A stretch of DNA of 39,836 nt from Candidatus Omnitrophota bacterium (GTDB lineage Bacteria; Omnitrophota; Gorgyraeia; Zapsychrales; Fredricksoniimonadaceae). The DNA lies in the NCBI GenBank assembly GCA_015232565.1, contig JADFZK010000029.1, forward strand, positions 1-39,836, read 5' to 3'. A program made the position numbers and the translations under genes. Below are positions 34,130 through 39,836 of this stretch, piece after piece. A model generated the notes under the pieces. That model did not search any database. It was given only the letters and a program-made list of their open reading frames with translations, and had not been told where the DNA came from. Position 1 is the first letter of the stretch. The number at the start of each line of letters is the position of its first letter.

Positions 34130-35556
34130 GCCGCCCTTTCCGCAACCACCCTTTTCACAATATCCCGCTCCACAAAATCCACCGAACCTTCTTTAAGCAC
34201 CTGATAAGTTTCATGGCCTTTACCGGCCAGCAAAATAATATCTCCCCGGCTCGCCAGCTCTATGGCACGACCGATAGCCGCTTCCCGGTCCACCTGAACT
34301 TCATAATTGTTTTTAGTAAAACCCGGGATGACTTCTGCAATAATTCCGGCCGGATCCTCACCGCGCGGATTATCCGAAGTGATTATGGAAAGGTCCGCCA
34401 GTTCACAGGCCACTTTACCCATACGGGGACGCTTGGTACGGTCGCGGTCACCGCCACAGCCAAAGACCACGATCAACCGTTTATGTTTTACTTCCTGCAA
34501 AGCCTGCAAAACATTCTTCAAGCCGTCGTCAGTATGCGCGTAATCAATGAATACCTCAAAGTCCTGCCCGCAATCCACCCGCTCCAGGCGGCCCGGAACA
34601 TTCTTCAGCGCTTCAATGCCTTTTTTTATAACCTGAGGGTCAAACCCCTCGCCCAGCCCGGCCGCAAAAGCCGCCAGGATATTGTAAACATTATGTTTGC
34701 CGGTGAACACCGTGTTGATCTCAACTTTACCGCCGGGGAAATGAATATCGAACCGCGCCCCTTGCCGGCCGAATTCATGCACCTGAGCGTACACCTCGGC
34801 AGAATTGCCCGGTTCAATACCATAAGTAAAAACCCGGGCCCGCGTCAAAGCCGCCAGTTTCCGGCCATAGGAATCATCAACATTTATTACAGCGTAAGCG
34901 TCGGCCGCCAGACCGGTGAACAAAAGGCTTTTGGCGGCAAAATAAGCCTCCATGGTGCCATGATAATCAATATGATCACCGGTAAGGTTGGTAAAAAGCG
35001 CCCCCCGAAAAGCGATCAGATCCACCCGTCCCTGATGCAAAGCATGGGAAGAAACTTCCAGCACGGCATGCGTAATACCCCGCTGGCGCAGATCGGCCAG
35101 AAAGATCTGATTATCCAGCAGGCCCGGAGTAGTATTGGTGGACGGTACAACTTTACCAGCCACCCGGTAATTAACCGTCCCCACTACGCCGCTTGACTTC
35201 CCGGCCGCTGCCAAAATCGCCTCCAGGAAATATGTTATCGTGGTCTTGCCGTTAGTCCCCGTAACCCCGATAGCCCGCACCTGCTCGGACGGCCGGCCAT
35301 AAAAGGCCTCCACCGCTGTCCGAAAAGCCTGCCGGGGATCAGCTACTCCCACAAACTTTACCTGCGGATAACGAGCGCTAAACGCCTCTTGGCTCTTTTC
35401 CGACAACAAGATCACTACCGCACCCTGCTCCACCGCCTGGGGAATAAATTCCTCACCCCGCCGGTTCGGGCCATCCAGGGCCGCGAACAAACTGCCCGGG
35501 ACCACTCTGCGCGAATCATCCCAAACCGAGTTAACCGCAATATTCTTAAAAAGCAT
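34117..35556 (-). CDS. murE: UDP-MurNAc-dipeptide ligase MurE, meso-DAP type
   Basis: This 479-residue ligase adds the third residue of the stem peptide. P-loop AIGVTGTNGKTTITYF (about residues 95-110), LEVSSHALHQGRV, NLTGDHIDYHGTM and VFIDYAHTDDGL are visible. The motif DNPR at 395-398 is the signature of enzymes adding meso-diaminopimelate rather than lysine, consistent with a Gram-negative wall. The N-terminal domain begins directly with the DDSRRVVPGSLFAAL region. It overlaps ftsI by 11 nt and murF by 13 nt. Confidence 0.95.
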   Translation of the reverse strand: MLFKNIAVNSVWDDSRRVVPGSLFAALDGPNRRGEEFIPQAVEQGAVVILLSEKSQEAFSARYPQVKFVGVADPRQAFRTAVEAFYGRPSEQVRAIGVTGTNGKTTITYFLEAILAAAGKSSGVVGTVNYRVAGKVVPSTNTTPGLLDNQIFLADLRQRGITHAVLEVSSHALHQGRVDLIAFRGALFTNLTGDHIDYHGTMEAYFAAKSLLFTGLAADAYAVINVDDSYGRKLAALTRARVFTYGIEPGNSAEVYAQVHEFGRQGARFDIHFPGGKVEINTVFTGKHNVYNILAAFAAGLGEGFDPQVIKKGIEALKNVPGRLERVDCGQDFEVFIDYAHTDDGLKNVLQALQEVKHKRLIVVFGCGGDRDRTKRPRMGKVACELADLSIITSDNPRGEDPAGIIAEVIPGFTKNNYEVQVDREAAIGRAIELASRGDIILLAGKGHETYQVLKEGSVDFVERDIVKRVVAERAACSR

Positions 35557-37240
35557 CGCGCTGACCTTTCCGACTTGCCAGATATTTCAAGGTATTCTCC
35601 ACCACTTCCTTAAAGACCGGCCCGGCCACCACCCCGCCATAATACGCCGGATGCGGCTCGTCCACATTTACCACCACCGCCAGCCGGGAACCCTCTACCG
35701 GAGCAAAGCCGATAAATGAGGCCACGAACTGACTGTGTGAATAAGTGCCATTCACCACTTTCTGCGCGGTACCGGTCTTGCCTCCGGCCGTCACGTCCTT
35801 GATCTTGGCCATCTGCGCCGTGCCTTCATCAATAACTCCCTGCAAAATACTGCGCACCCGCCGGGCAGTCTCCACACTCATGACCCGCGACACCACTTGT
35901 GGTTTGTTCTCGGCGATCACCATACCGTTAGCGGCTTTTACCTGTTTGACAAAATAAGGCTTCATGATAACCCCGTCATTGGCAATGGCGGCTATAGCCA
36001 CTGCCAACTGTATAGGCGTCACCGTCACTTCCTGGCCGATCGGTATTGCGGCCATCGAGGTCTTGGACCAGCGGCTGGTGGCTTTTAGCAAGCCGCCGAC
36101 CTCGCCGGTCATGCCAATATTGGTCTTCAGCCCAAACCGGAACCGATGAGCATATTCATATACTTTATCGGGGCCCAGGCGCTGGGCCACCTTAACGGTG
36201 CCAATATTGCTGGATTCCTCAATAACCTGCCGGAAAGTCAGCCGGCCTTTCGGATGCGCATCTTTAAGAATATGATTACCCACCCGATATTTGCCATTCT
36301 CGCAAAAAAACACTTCCTGTTCGTTGGTCACACCCTCTTCCAGCGCGGCAGTAGCGGTAACTATCTTAAAGACCGAACCCGGTTCATACACAAAGGCCAC
36401 CGCGCGATTAGTGCGGTTCTCCGCCGGGCTTCTGTCCGGAGCGTCGGGCCGAAATGTAGGGCGGTTGGCAAAAGCCAGCACCTCGCCGGTCTTCGGGTCC
36501 AGCACAATAACGCTGGCCGATGCGGCATTATACTTGACGAAAGCTTTCTCCAAAGCTTTCTCGGCGATGAACTGAATGGTCTCGTCTATGGTAAGTATTA
36601 CATCACTCCCGTCTTTGGGAGCGATAAAGTCTTTTTCGATCATCAGGTCGCGCTGACGGGCATCGCGCAGAAACTGCGCCACCCCTTTGGTACCGCGCAA
36701 ATACTTGTCGTACTCCAGCTCTACGCCCTGCAGACCGACATTGTCGATGTTCGCGAACCCTATCACATGCGCCGCCATTTCGCCATTGGGATACGACCGC
36801 TTGCTTTCCCTGATAAAAGCCAAACCGCTGATCCGGTCCGCTTTTAATTTTTCATACGCCTCCTGGGGGATCTTGCGGGCCAGCCACACAAAGCTCTTGG
36901 ACTTTTCCATCTTCCTGAGCAAGGCCTCCGAACTGACTCCCAGGACCCTGGACACTTTTTGCGCGGCCAGGGATTTTTGTTCGTTCGTCATGGCCTTGGG
37001 ATTAGCAAAAAGTGAATACGCCGCCAGATTACGCGCCAGCTCGCGCATTTCCCGGTCGCAGATCTTGCCGCGGATCGGCTCAAGGTCCACCACATGGTTG
37101 TGCTGTTTGTCGGCCTTATCTGCCAAATAACTGGAACGGAACAACTGAATAAGAGACAGTTTGATGGTGAACATGCCCAAAAGCAGGAAGATGCTAAAAA
37201 AGATAAAACCAAGGCGTAGGGAATAGCGCTGGGAATTCAA
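35546..37240 (-). CDS. ftsI: Septal class B penicillin-binding protein FtsI (PBP3-like)
   Basis: This 564-residue transpeptidase has a single N-terminal membrane helix (about residues 11-30), a PBP dimerisation domain and a transpeptidase domain with SVFK (Ser289, Lys292), SSN (343-345) and KTGT (488-491). It cross-links septal peptidoglycan with FtsW. There is no C-terminal PASTA domain. No ATG lies in frame before the membrane helix, so a TTG at 37240 is the likely start. ftsL lies 84 nt upstream and murE overlaps at the other end. Spo-type variants of this family share these motifs, but position in the dcw operon supports FtsI. Confidence 0.93.
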   Translation of the reverse strand: MNSQRYSLRLGFIFFSIFLLLGMFTIKLSLIQLFRSSYLADKADKQHNHVVDLEPIRGKICDREMRELARNLAAYSLFANPKAMTNEQKSLAAQKVSRVLGVSSEALLRKMEKSKSFVWLARKIPQEAYEKLKADRISGLAFIRESKRSYPNGEMAAHVIGFANIDNVGLQGVELEYDKYLRGTKGVAQFLRDARQRDLMIEKDFIAPKDGSDVILTIDETIQFIAEKALEKAFVKYNAASASVIVLDPKTGEVLAFANRPTFRPDAPDRSPAENRTNRAVAFVYEPGSVFKIVTATAALEEGVTNEQEVFFCENGKYRVGNHILKDAHPKGRLTFRQVIEESSNIGTVKVAQRLGPDKVYEYAHRFRFGLKTNIGMTGEVGGLLKATSRWSKTSMAAIPIGQEVTVTPIQLAVAIAAIANDGVIMKPYFVKQVKAANGMVIAENKPQVVSRVMSVETARRVRSILQGVIDEGTAQMAKIKDVTAGGKTGTAQKVVNGTYSHSQFVASFIGFAPVEGSRLAVVVNVDEPHPAYYGGVVAGPVFKEVVENTLKYLASRKGQRDAF

Positions 37241-37324: not shown

Positions 37325-37636
37325 TTAAAATTTCGCCAAAGCCAAAAGCCCCGCCAGAGGATTACCGGCCGTTTCCTCAACTTCAACCACATTATTCCGG
37401 CCCAGGAACTTGTAATCATTTTCTTTGGCCAGTAACTGCCGTCCCATATGATCGGAGGACTTCAGGCGTAAAATTTCGTTCTTCATAATGTTATTATTTT
37501 CGGCCAGCTTCTCGATCTTGTCCTCACGCCTTTTACCCTGATAAGCGAGGTCATAAATATTCATCTGCAAATGGATGTAAAGCACACCCATGGTAGTTAT
37601 AAGGAACATAACCTTAAGAAAATCACTGACCTTCAT
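37325..37636 (-). CDS. ftsL: FtsL-like division protein
   Basis: This 103-residue bitopic protein has a short N-terminus, one transmembrane helix (about residues 7-25) and a polar helical stretch with heptad-like leucines and isoleucines (about 35-65, IEKLAENNNIMKNEILRLKS). Sequence identity in FtsL is low, so the call rests on topology, size and place between rsmH (ATGA overlap) and ftsI. FtsL forms a complex with FtsB and FtsQ that activates FtsWI. Confidence 0.8.
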   Translation of the reverse strand: MKVSDFLKVMFLITTMGVLYIHLQMNIYDLAYQGKRREDKIEKLAENNNIMKNEILRLKSSDHMGRQLLAKENDYKFLGRNNVVEVEETAGNPLAGLLALAKF

Positions 37637-38568
37637 AATATCCTTTCCAATGCCCGTAAACGCGCACTGCGGGAACGGGGGTTCGCCTGCTCTTCTTCTG
37701 GAGCAGGCCTTAAGGGTTTTTTAGTTAATACCATGGCTTGCCCGGACAGGGCCAACGCCCGAAACTGGTCTTTTACAATGCGATCTTCGAGAGAATGAAA
37801 AGAAATAACACACATCCTGCCGTGTACCTTCAACCGGGAGAAAGCCGTTGCCAGCACTGCTTCCAGCGCCGCCAGCTCCTGGTTTACCGCTATCCTGATG
37901 CCCTGAAATGAACGAGTCGCGGGATGTGCGCCATCCCGGGAATGCTTGTACGGCAACGACCGCAAAATGATATTGGCCAGCTCGGCCGTGGTATCAATGG
38001 CACTCGCCGCACGCGCCTTAACAATATTGCGGGCGATCCTCCGGCTAAAACGCTCCTCGCCGTACTGCCACAAAACCCGGGCCAACTCTTCTTCCGCAAA
38101 AGTATTCACGATCTCAAAAGCCGAAACCGGAGCGCCGGAATCCATCCGCATATCCAGCGGGCCATCCCGGCGAAAACTGAACCCCCGGGAAGCATCGTCC
38201 AACTGAATACTGGAAACCCCCAGGTCGAAAAGGATCGCATCCACCGCTTTGATCTCGAGGCCGTCGAGAACTTCCGCCAGGCGCCGAAAATTGCTTTTTA
38301 CGATGTCCAACCGCCCGGGAAACTCGCTCAAGCGCGCTTTAGCCGCCGCAATAGCCTGGTCGTCCTGGTCTATACCCACCAACCGGCCTTTGGGGCCAAT
38401 AAGCCCGCCCATAATCAAGGAGTGCCCGCCCAAGCCCAGAGTGCAATCCACTACCAACATCCCCGGGCGTAACATCAGAGCCTCCACCACTTCCCGGCTC
38501 ATTACCGATACATGCCCAAAACTTTCCGGCACCACAGATTCATCAGGCTTTACAACTTTCAATTTCAT
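37633..38568 (-). CDS. rsmH: 16S rRNA m4C1402 methyltransferase RsmH (MraW)
   Basis: This 311-residue methyltransferase modifies N4 of C1402 in 16S rRNA. Family motifs are HVSVMSREVVEAL, SAM-binding VVDCTLGLGGHS, GIDQDDQAI, DAILFDLGVSSIQLD, the GFSFRRDGPLDMRMD segment and ISFHSLEDRIVK. The start MKLKVVKP at 38568 overlaps the stop of the small upstream gene in ATGA; a longer in-frame start at 38646 lies wholly inside that gene. Its own stop overlaps ftsL in ATGA. Confidence 0.95.
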   Translation of the reverse strand: MKLKVVKPDESVVPESFGHVSVMSREVVEALMLRPGMLVVDCTLGLGGHSLIMGGLIGPKGRLVGIDQDDQAIAAAKARLSEFPGRLDIVKSNFRRLAEVLDGLEIKAVDAILFDLGVSSIQLDDASRGFSFRRDGPLDMRMDSGAPVSAFEIVNTFAEEELARVLWQYGEERFSRRIARNIVKARAASAIDTTAELANIILRSLPYKHSRDGAHPATRSFQGIRIAVNQELAALEAVLATAFSRLKVHGRMCVISFHSLEDRIVKDQFRALALSGQAMVLTKKPLRPAPEEEQANPRSRSARLRALERIL

Positions 38569-38852
38569 AAAGCCGCGAATTCCGGACTGGCCGCCACAAA
38601 ACTTGGTATCTTGCGTTCCATAACCGCTAATTCGAACCCTTCCCAAACATTCTGCCGATCCTGCTCATCGAGCACCTCTTCCCAGTTGCCGCGGGTACCA
38701 TTGCGCTGATAAACCTTGCGGCGCTCCTTGAACAGGAGAAAGATCCTCGTCCGACCGGTGAACTCCTCCTGGGTAGAACAAAAAACACATTCACAATGCG
38801 GCAATTCCACCATGTGCTTGAAGACGAGCCTGGACTGGATCATGGTCATCAT
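38565..38852 (-). CDS. Unknown small CxCxxC-containing protein between mraZ and rsmH
   Basis: This protein of about 95 residues has no family I recognise. It contains a HCECVFC cluster (about residues 20-26) that could bind a metal, a basic and aromatic middle (RTRIFLLFKERRKVYQRN) and an acidic end region (NWEEVLDEQDRQNVWEGFELAV). No signal peptide or membrane helix is seen. Evidence for a real gene: the AGGGGGT box before ATG 38852, a stop that overlaps rsmH in ATGA, and 45 nt from the mraZ stop. GTG 38858 and ATG 38849 or 38843 are alternative starts. Co-expression with mraZ and rsmH suggests a role linked to growth or division, but no function can be named. Confidence 0.75.
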   Translation of the reverse strand: MMTMIQSRLVFKHMVELPHCECVFCSTQEEFTGRTRIFLLFKERRKVYQRNGTRGNWEEVLDEQDRQNVWEGFELAVMERKIPSFVAASPEFAAL

Positions 38853-38897
38853 AGGCACCCCCTGGTTCGAAAAAGTTTTTCCCCGATCGCCTGTTTG

Positions 38898-39335
38898 TTA
38901 CAGGTCGATCATCTTCTCGGCTGTTTGCTCAAACAGCTCGGTCGACTTGCTATAGAATTCCTGCCAGCGCGCGGTGTCCCAGATCTCGATACGATTCGAA
39001 ACCCCGATCAACACTGTTTTTTTACTGATACCCGCAAAATCCTTTAAATACTGAGGGATAACAAAACGGCCTTGCTTATCCGGCACCACATCCACAGCGC
39101 CGGAAAAGAACATGCGGTTAAATGTGCGTGCATCCTGCTTGGTGAAAGAAAGCCCCTTGAACTTCTGCTCTTGGACCTTCCACTCGTATTCCGTGAACAT
39201 AAAAATGCACTTTTCCAGCCCGCGGGTAACAAAGAACTTTTCGATATTGTTGTCACGGGCCGCATCACGAAAACGGGAAGGCATGATCAGACGGCCTTTG
39301 GTGTCCAGATTGTGAGCGTATTCGCCGTAGAACAT
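38898..39335 (-). CDS. mraZ: Transcriptional regulator MraZ
   Basis: This 145-residue protein has two SpoVT/AbrB-like domains, with the repeated motifs DTKGRLIMPSRFRD (about residues 11-24) and DKQGRFVIPQYLKDFA (about 85-100). MraZ binds repeats in front of the dcw operon and represses it. The start MFYGEYAHNLD at 39335 has an AGGTGA box just upstream; an in-frame extension to 39392 would run through the operator and is unlikely. It is the first gene of the dcw operon. Confidence 0.95.
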   Translation of the reverse strand: MFYGEYAHNLDTKGRLIMPSRFRDAARDNNIEKFFVTRGLEKCIFMFTEYEWKVQEQKFKGLSFTKQDARTFNRMFFSGAVDVVPDKQGRFVIPQYLKDFAGISKKTVLIGVSNRIEIWDTARWQEFYSKSTELFEQTAEKMIDL

Positions 39336-39461: not shown

Positions 39462-39836
39462 AAGGCCCTAAAAACACCCTTACACCGTCGGTGACATTAA
39501 GAAACAATTACTGTTTGGGAGAAATGCGCGAAAAAGGCAGGCTTAATTACGGAAATGAGCCCCAAAAGAGGGCCCGAAAGAGTAAATGGCGGAATTATGG
39601 GTAACCTGCTCCACTAGTGATCATCTAAAAAAGGTACATGTTTAGCGAATCGAGAGATTTAATCATTTTCGTAGGGGCCGACCTTGTGTCTGGCCCGGCG
39701 GAGAAGCGATCGCAACTCGATTTGCTTCTTATGCCGGGCCGACACAAGGTCGGCCCCTACGCTCGACGAGCTCTCGATTCGCTCCTGACTTCGTCAATGG
39801 GACACCCAAATCAGCCTTTTTGAACGATGTTGTAAA
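39462..39836. other. Non-coding right end of window
   Basis: No credible gene is seen in these 375 bp. A short open frame at 39638-39823 on the plus strand is produced by the palindromic element inside it. Apart from that element and a small CACCG-T-CGGTG repeat at 39483-39493, nothing was recognised. Confidence 0.6.
39645..39782. repeat. Nested palindromic element (MITE-like), 138 bp
   Basis: The outer 12-bp arms GCGAATCGAGAG (39645-39656) and CTCTCGATTCGC (39771-39782) are perfect inverted copies. Inside, 39670-39699 and 39733-39761 are inverted copies of about 29 bp that differ by one inserted T; they contain GTAGGGGCCGACCTTGTGTC. A third, inner AGAAGC/GCTTCT pair completes a long hairpin. 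No transposase and no obvious target duplication are seen. The form fits a miniature inverted-repeat or palindromic intergenic element. Confidence 0.75.

Follow-up and report, generated by a model that had tools for sequence, protein, structure and literature searches.

Genes nested out of frame within giant Omnitrophota ORFs and a related small gene overlapping rsmH in the dcw cluster

The 95-codon ORF located between mraZ and rsmH in a single 39,836-base contig from a 2.64 Mb Omnitrophota genome (the window, meaning the whole stretch of DNA that was analysed) is, judged from comparisons of sequences, a real gene rather than a product of chance, and a member of an undescribed protein family of uncultured Omnitrophota. 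This family occurs in three settings: linked to mraZ as in the window, nested within giant ORFs on the same strand and, for a few members, as stand-alone genes. Its anatomy and its coding status appear, from the same comparisons, to be almost certain. The explanation that we favour as a whole, and consider on balance probable, is that the nested copies are internally initiated genes, that the copy in the dcw cluster descends from one of them, and that the nested products function as cis partners of the proteins encoded around them.

The small gene occupies positions 38565 to 38852 on the minus strand, from ATG to TGA, and is flanked upstream, at a distance of 45 nt, by mraZ (38898 to 39320, minus strand; PF02381, 4e-36) and downstream by rsmH (37633 to 38568, minus strand; PF01795, 4e-105), encoding the 16S rRNA m4C1402 methyltransferase. 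A Shine-Dalgarno-like (SD) sequence, AGGGGGTG (38856 to 38863, minus strand), is positioned 3 nt before the ATG, and relatives within the genus have a strong SD, either AGGAGG or AGGGGGTG, at this site. The ATG at 38852 is the start favoured by position and by relatives, with a GTG at 38858 as a possible alternative. The TGA (38567-38565) and the rsmH ATG (38568-38566) share an ATGA stop/start overlap (38565 to 38568, minus strand), which is likely to result in translational coupling, and the preliminary description of this DNA was thus accurate in reporting a gene of about 95 codons next to mraZ with its own RBS and an ATGA overlap with rsmH. By a count limited to script-detected starts, the -4 overlap with rsmH is present at 7 of 27 mraZ-linked loci, those of the genus and of a few, but not all, other members of the taxonomic family. 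Further downstream on the same strand are an FtsL/DivIC-like gene (37325 to 37636; weak match) and a gene for a class B penicillin-binding protein of the FtsI/SpoVD type (35546 to 37240). The gene order and coupling are those of an ordinary mraZ-rsmH-ftsL-ftsI start of a dcw cluster, from which the window differs by the addition, between mraZ and rsmH, of a 95-codon gene without a family match. Near the contig end, at 39665-39785, there is a long imperfect palindrome (GTAGGGGCCGACCTTGTGTC...) for which the genome yields 29 matches; this dispersed palindromic repeat may be why the assembly ends there.

Homologues are present in 41 of 92 related genomes, and the best-matching loci that include both neighbouring genes retain the order mraZ-sORF-rsmH, so the ORF is not a chance one. 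Among the named relatives matched by the small protein, almost all are MAGs of Omnitrophota. Pairwise dN/dS values for the mraZ-linked copies, where synonymous change is unsaturated, are 0.044-0.088, consistent with purifying selection. Conservation of the frame between relatives and conservation of the Cys residues had been named beforehand as the two points on which the gene would stand or fall; neither refutes it, and with its conserved frame and Cys it is well described as a real lineage-specific gene. Profile searches with the translation, also proposed at the outset, found homologues in Omnitrophota genomes but no curated family: neither the single protein nor 47 members gave a significant match in Pfam, NCBIfam or PHROGs, with a match counted if it exceeded the curated cut-off, or if it had E < 0.001 supported by several members. 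A sequence search of the PDB returned nothing of weight. An AlphaFold2 model built from 14 sequences (pLDDT 77, pTM 0.66) shows a five-stranded antiparallel sheet and a C-terminal helix, and the product is predicted to be a small soluble protein. Foldseek comparisons with the PDB and BFVD gave no match at E <= 0.001 (best E 1.2), and the polo-box and immunity-protein rows, being weak, were set aside.

A profile search of 384 genomes, Omnitrophota according to their record titles, gave matches in 74, and these mostly led to nested copies. The distant homologues are not near mraZ, and at 18 of 21 such loci the homologue is enclosed by an ORF of the same strand that takes up all, or most, of the DNA fetched. 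Of 40 further loci fetched by homology alone, 39 hold nested copies in the same phase, the exception (L123) having two copies that are not nested. The giant ORFs extend to 16,007, 12,705 and 12,145 codons, several are still open at contig ends, and individual giant ORFs contain up to three nested copies. Unknown bases do not create these frames: N is absent from most nested loci, and where it does occur, in a few, the phase is unchanged. The phase of nesting is always -1, with the giant frame corresponding to the small frame +1. Stops were counted over the small gene's final 85 codons, where the giant frame has none in the 18 copies of the first set and the third frame has 133. In 28 mraZ-linked copies, the frame corresponding to the giant frame has 69 stops, and is stop-free in only 3, and the other alternative frame has 171. 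With that other frame so full of stops, no special machinery is needed to account for the constant -1 phase. The window gene itself has a stop in the giant-equivalent frame and so is free-standing, not nested. A changed genetic code was considered and rejected, as the nested genes end with TAA, TAG and TGA, all three of which are avoided by the giant frame.

That the nested frames are accidental open frames has, in our estimate, a negligible probability. Long alternative-frame ORFs do occur by themselves, with 29 of at least 80 codons in the other phase of 527 kb of giant ORF used as a control, but the -1 phase of the same DNA has 71 ATG-initiated ORFs of that length, and the fact that 68 of these are family members is inconsistent with background. 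The homology within the family, and the presence of an ATG and SD in essentially all copies, also argue against accident, and the substitution pattern already refutes it. In codon alignments of five pairs of related loci, substitutions within the overlap are concentrated at the second codon position of the giant frame, which is the third position of the small gene, and the third-position bias of the giant frame is normal in most of the flanks. The same codon-position shift is seen in two more distant pairs. The small frame has dN/dS values of 0.035 (G053/G061), 0.25 (G036/G044), 0.15, 0.10 and 0.23, all simple Nei-Gojobori counts that an overlap-aware model would refine, although such a model is not needed for the position shift. 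In the overlap, the giant frame has an apparent dN/dS of 0.7 to 6 where computable and never a stop; it shows no sign of amino acid constraint, and drifts yet stays open. In one pair of loci (L037/L039), giant codons from about 895 to 1662, a stretch of roughly 770 codons upstream of the nested gene, have a low and flat substitution rate over all three positions, unlike the rest of the ORF. This stretch might reflect recombination, unusual evolution of the protein or a further overlapping constraint.

All 68 scored nested copies start with ATG and 63 have a perfect SD of at least 6 nt. The SD, ATG and stop of these genes strongly suggest that ribosomes initiate internally on the giant mRNA to translate the nested copies, which would yield a second protein from one stretch of DNA. 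Programmed -1 frameshifting at the SD-like site would instead cut the giant protein short and leave the small domain as its C-terminal end. In dnaX, -1 slippage is stimulated by SD-like sequences, and the constant -1 phase of the nested copies would fit such an event, but the phase is explained more simply by the stops in the other frame (171 versus 69). Furthermore, frameshifting needs no start codon, whereas an ATG is present at canonical SD spacing in 68 of 68 copies, an in-frame stop lies as near as one codon before the ATG, leaving almost no window for slippage, and the same ATG starts the stand-alone homologues. We consider frameshifting very unlikely. Translational bypass was also rejected, as it would not require a stop-free overlap.

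Fully nested, conserved same-strand overlapping genes in bacteria are, to our knowledge, rare and disputed, and the overlapping genes of which we are aware are mostly isolated cases or short terminal overlaps. Much of the dispute stems from the difficulty of obtaining evidence for selection. The giant-ORF homologues described here are wholly inside another gene on the same strand, are under purifying selection and have their own start signals. As for other bacterial same-strand, out-of-frame nested genes (PMC2542354, PMC7531306), two frames of one strand are used, the phase is explained by composition, consistent with the compositional phase bias of bacterial overlaps (PMC2542354), and there is selection on the small frame, the property by which overlapping genes have been detected (PMC7531306). 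They differ in that one family is nested repeatedly across a class, with 68 copies scored, and has stand-alone members elsewhere. A single family provides dozens of naturally repeated nested cases, for which the stand-alone relatives serve as an internal control. The codon-position signature is clean, the host genes are among the largest known in bacteria, and the family offers a concrete handle on the translation of giant ORFs. As gene callers drop short ORFs inside longer ones, the family is probably missed in most Omnitrophota genomes. The giant ORFs were already known. They have been documented in Velamenicoccia and Omnitrophia, as exemplified by the 39,678-aa ORF of Ca. Velamenicoccus archaeovorus, and those with many membrane helices have been tied to attachment and predation, and proposed as predation factors (PMC10066038). 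The hosts of the nested genes resemble these in having thousands of codons, membrane segments and few annotated domains. The genes nested within them appear to be the new part: the words 'overlap' and 'nested' have zero occurrences in the main text of PMC10066038, and no report of genes nested in Omnitrophota giant ORFs was found in the literature searched, the scope of which did not include bioRxiv.

In a tree of 99 members, unrooted and based on 95 columns, the mraZ-linked copies form one clade (support 99/81), which is joined to most of the nested copies of the same order (100/98). The other side of the tree contains the nested copies of other orders and one pair from taxonomic family f6 of the same order. 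As nested copies are found class-wide and dcw copies are confined to one order, the simplest history is that a copy left a giant gene once and entered the dcw cluster. It seems likely from the tree and the alignments that the window gene is an escaped, Cys-acquiring descendant of a nested copy that would have moved once into the dcw cluster of the ancestor of the order and gained a CxxC there.

Numbered from the ATG at 38852, the motif HCECVFC comprises residues 19-25 (38778 to 38798, minus strand). H19, C20, C22 and C25 are all invariant in 14 close sequences, but only C22, F24 and C25 are invariant over 27 scored mraZ-linked copies, with C20 present in 21 and H19 in 14, mainly in the window gene's own family, and fixed only in close relatives. 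Conservation of the His and the three Cys residues, a check proposed in advance, thus holds for the CxxC pair and fails for the His and the Cys that precedes the pair. Of 67 nested copies, 3 retain C25 and 15 retain C22, and the CxxC, invariant in one clade and nearly absent from the nested copies, was therefore gained or fixed in the mraZ-linked clade. The preliminary description had suggested a motif that could hold zinc or an iron-sulfur centre, in a protein that may be a lineage-specific regulator or ribosome/division factor. A full four-ligand centre does not survive these comparisons: C22 and C25 are the only two of the four ligands invariant in the mraZ-linked clade, the additional ligands are variable and the nested homologues have lost the motif. 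Given homologues that lack HCECVFC, the fold itself needs no metal at this site. The residues that are conserved family-wide, H13, V15, F24, L39, Y48, R50, W57, A76 and P83, resemble the core of a fold together with a single common surface, rather than a site for metal. The window clade shares an invariant CxxC pair with small CxxC or zinc-binding proteins, but differs from them in that the additional ligands are not conserved, homologues lack these Cys, and the motif is predicted to lie in a strand, the AlphaFold model placing C22-C25 in a beta strand and not in a knuckle. With the pair so placed in the model, C22 and C25 may or may not bind a metal.

An alternative, in our view somewhat unlikely, is that the mraZ-linked protein works independently as a zinc-binding regulator, acting on the dcw operon or on RsmH, and that the nested homologues are paralogues doing unrelated jobs. 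The restriction of the invariant CxxC to the mraZ-linked clade, the coupling to rsmH and the strong purifying selection are all as expected of such a regulator, but two invariant Cys residues could not make up a mononuclear site unless other ligands or dimerisation contributed, and no DNA- or RNA-binding family was matched. Under descent from a nested copy, the dcw gene would have been redeployed, its product becoming a partner within the mraZ-rsmH-fts unit that depends on a thiol or a metal and whose synthesis the ATGA coupling keeps in line with that of RsmH. The genome that contains the window yielded no nested copy, so a giant protein need not be the target of the dcw copy; a giant sequence from another genome (G011) was not found there either, and the Laminin_G and SLT matches in the window's genome lie in ORFs of at most 2502 aa. 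The dcw cluster gains a lineage-specific coupled gene with a clade-specific CxxC.

Two of the stand-alone copies, at L046 and L048 (genomes G061 and G053), have an SPFH/Band 7 gene on one side and, on the other, a TPR gene that is followed by LptE, HolA and MurJ, an envelope-biogenesis setting. The minus-strand ORF at L123:4245-7178 encodes 978 aa, with the family domain N-terminal and TPR-like repeats C-terminal, and is the only fusion seen.

The domains that flank the nested gene in the giant frame vary, and include SLT and M23, SecA-like, GGDEF and M42-like peptidase domains. Relative to the start of the small gene, hydrophobic segments show a slight rise in frequency about 50 residues upstream and again 120-140 residues downstream. 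Based on location only, the nested product could be a small cytoplasmic cis partner, or autoregulator, of the giant membrane or surface protein made around it; this function is the weakest step in the account that we favour and, taken separately, is doubtful. Immunity against toxic or wall-lytic domains of the giant protein is a quite improbable alternative. SLT and M23 wall hydrolase domains are encoded downstream in the giant frame at some loci, and the proposal that giant proteins are predation factors (PMC10066038) would be consistent with a need for protection. However, wall hydrolases act outside, whereas the small protein has no hydrophobic N-terminal segment, and the dcw copies have no adjacent toxin. 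Immunity proteins diversify along with their toxins, but here the neighbouring domains differ by locus (SecA-like, GGDEF, M42, SLT/M23) and the small protein is conserved. In L039 and L134, the giant frame encodes SecA-like domains and a GGDEF domain a short way downstream of the nested gene; these functions are cytoplasmic and unexpected in a surface protein. A giant ORF fragment (L033:2-6496) matches the phage integrase family near its start and, beyond the nested gene, weakly matches a glucosaminidase.

A second nested gene, of about 50 codons and with a strong SD, encodes a helical product (FxEExxxLExxYxIxxLxExR) and is located about 340-780 nt upstream of the family member, in the phase not used by the latter (+1 with respect to the giant frame), at L148:2089, L135, L138, L137, L143-L145, L146, L125, L126, L129 and L115. 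We tentatively raise the possibility that the giant genes are layered, their mRNA carrying in the two other frames a small nested operon with products that would govern translation, export or folding of the giant protein, and that the dcw gene is an escaped member of this set. In 776 kb of giant ORFs, there are 3 strong SD plus ATG sites in frame and 94 in the two other frames, which suggests that in-frame internal initiation is avoided.
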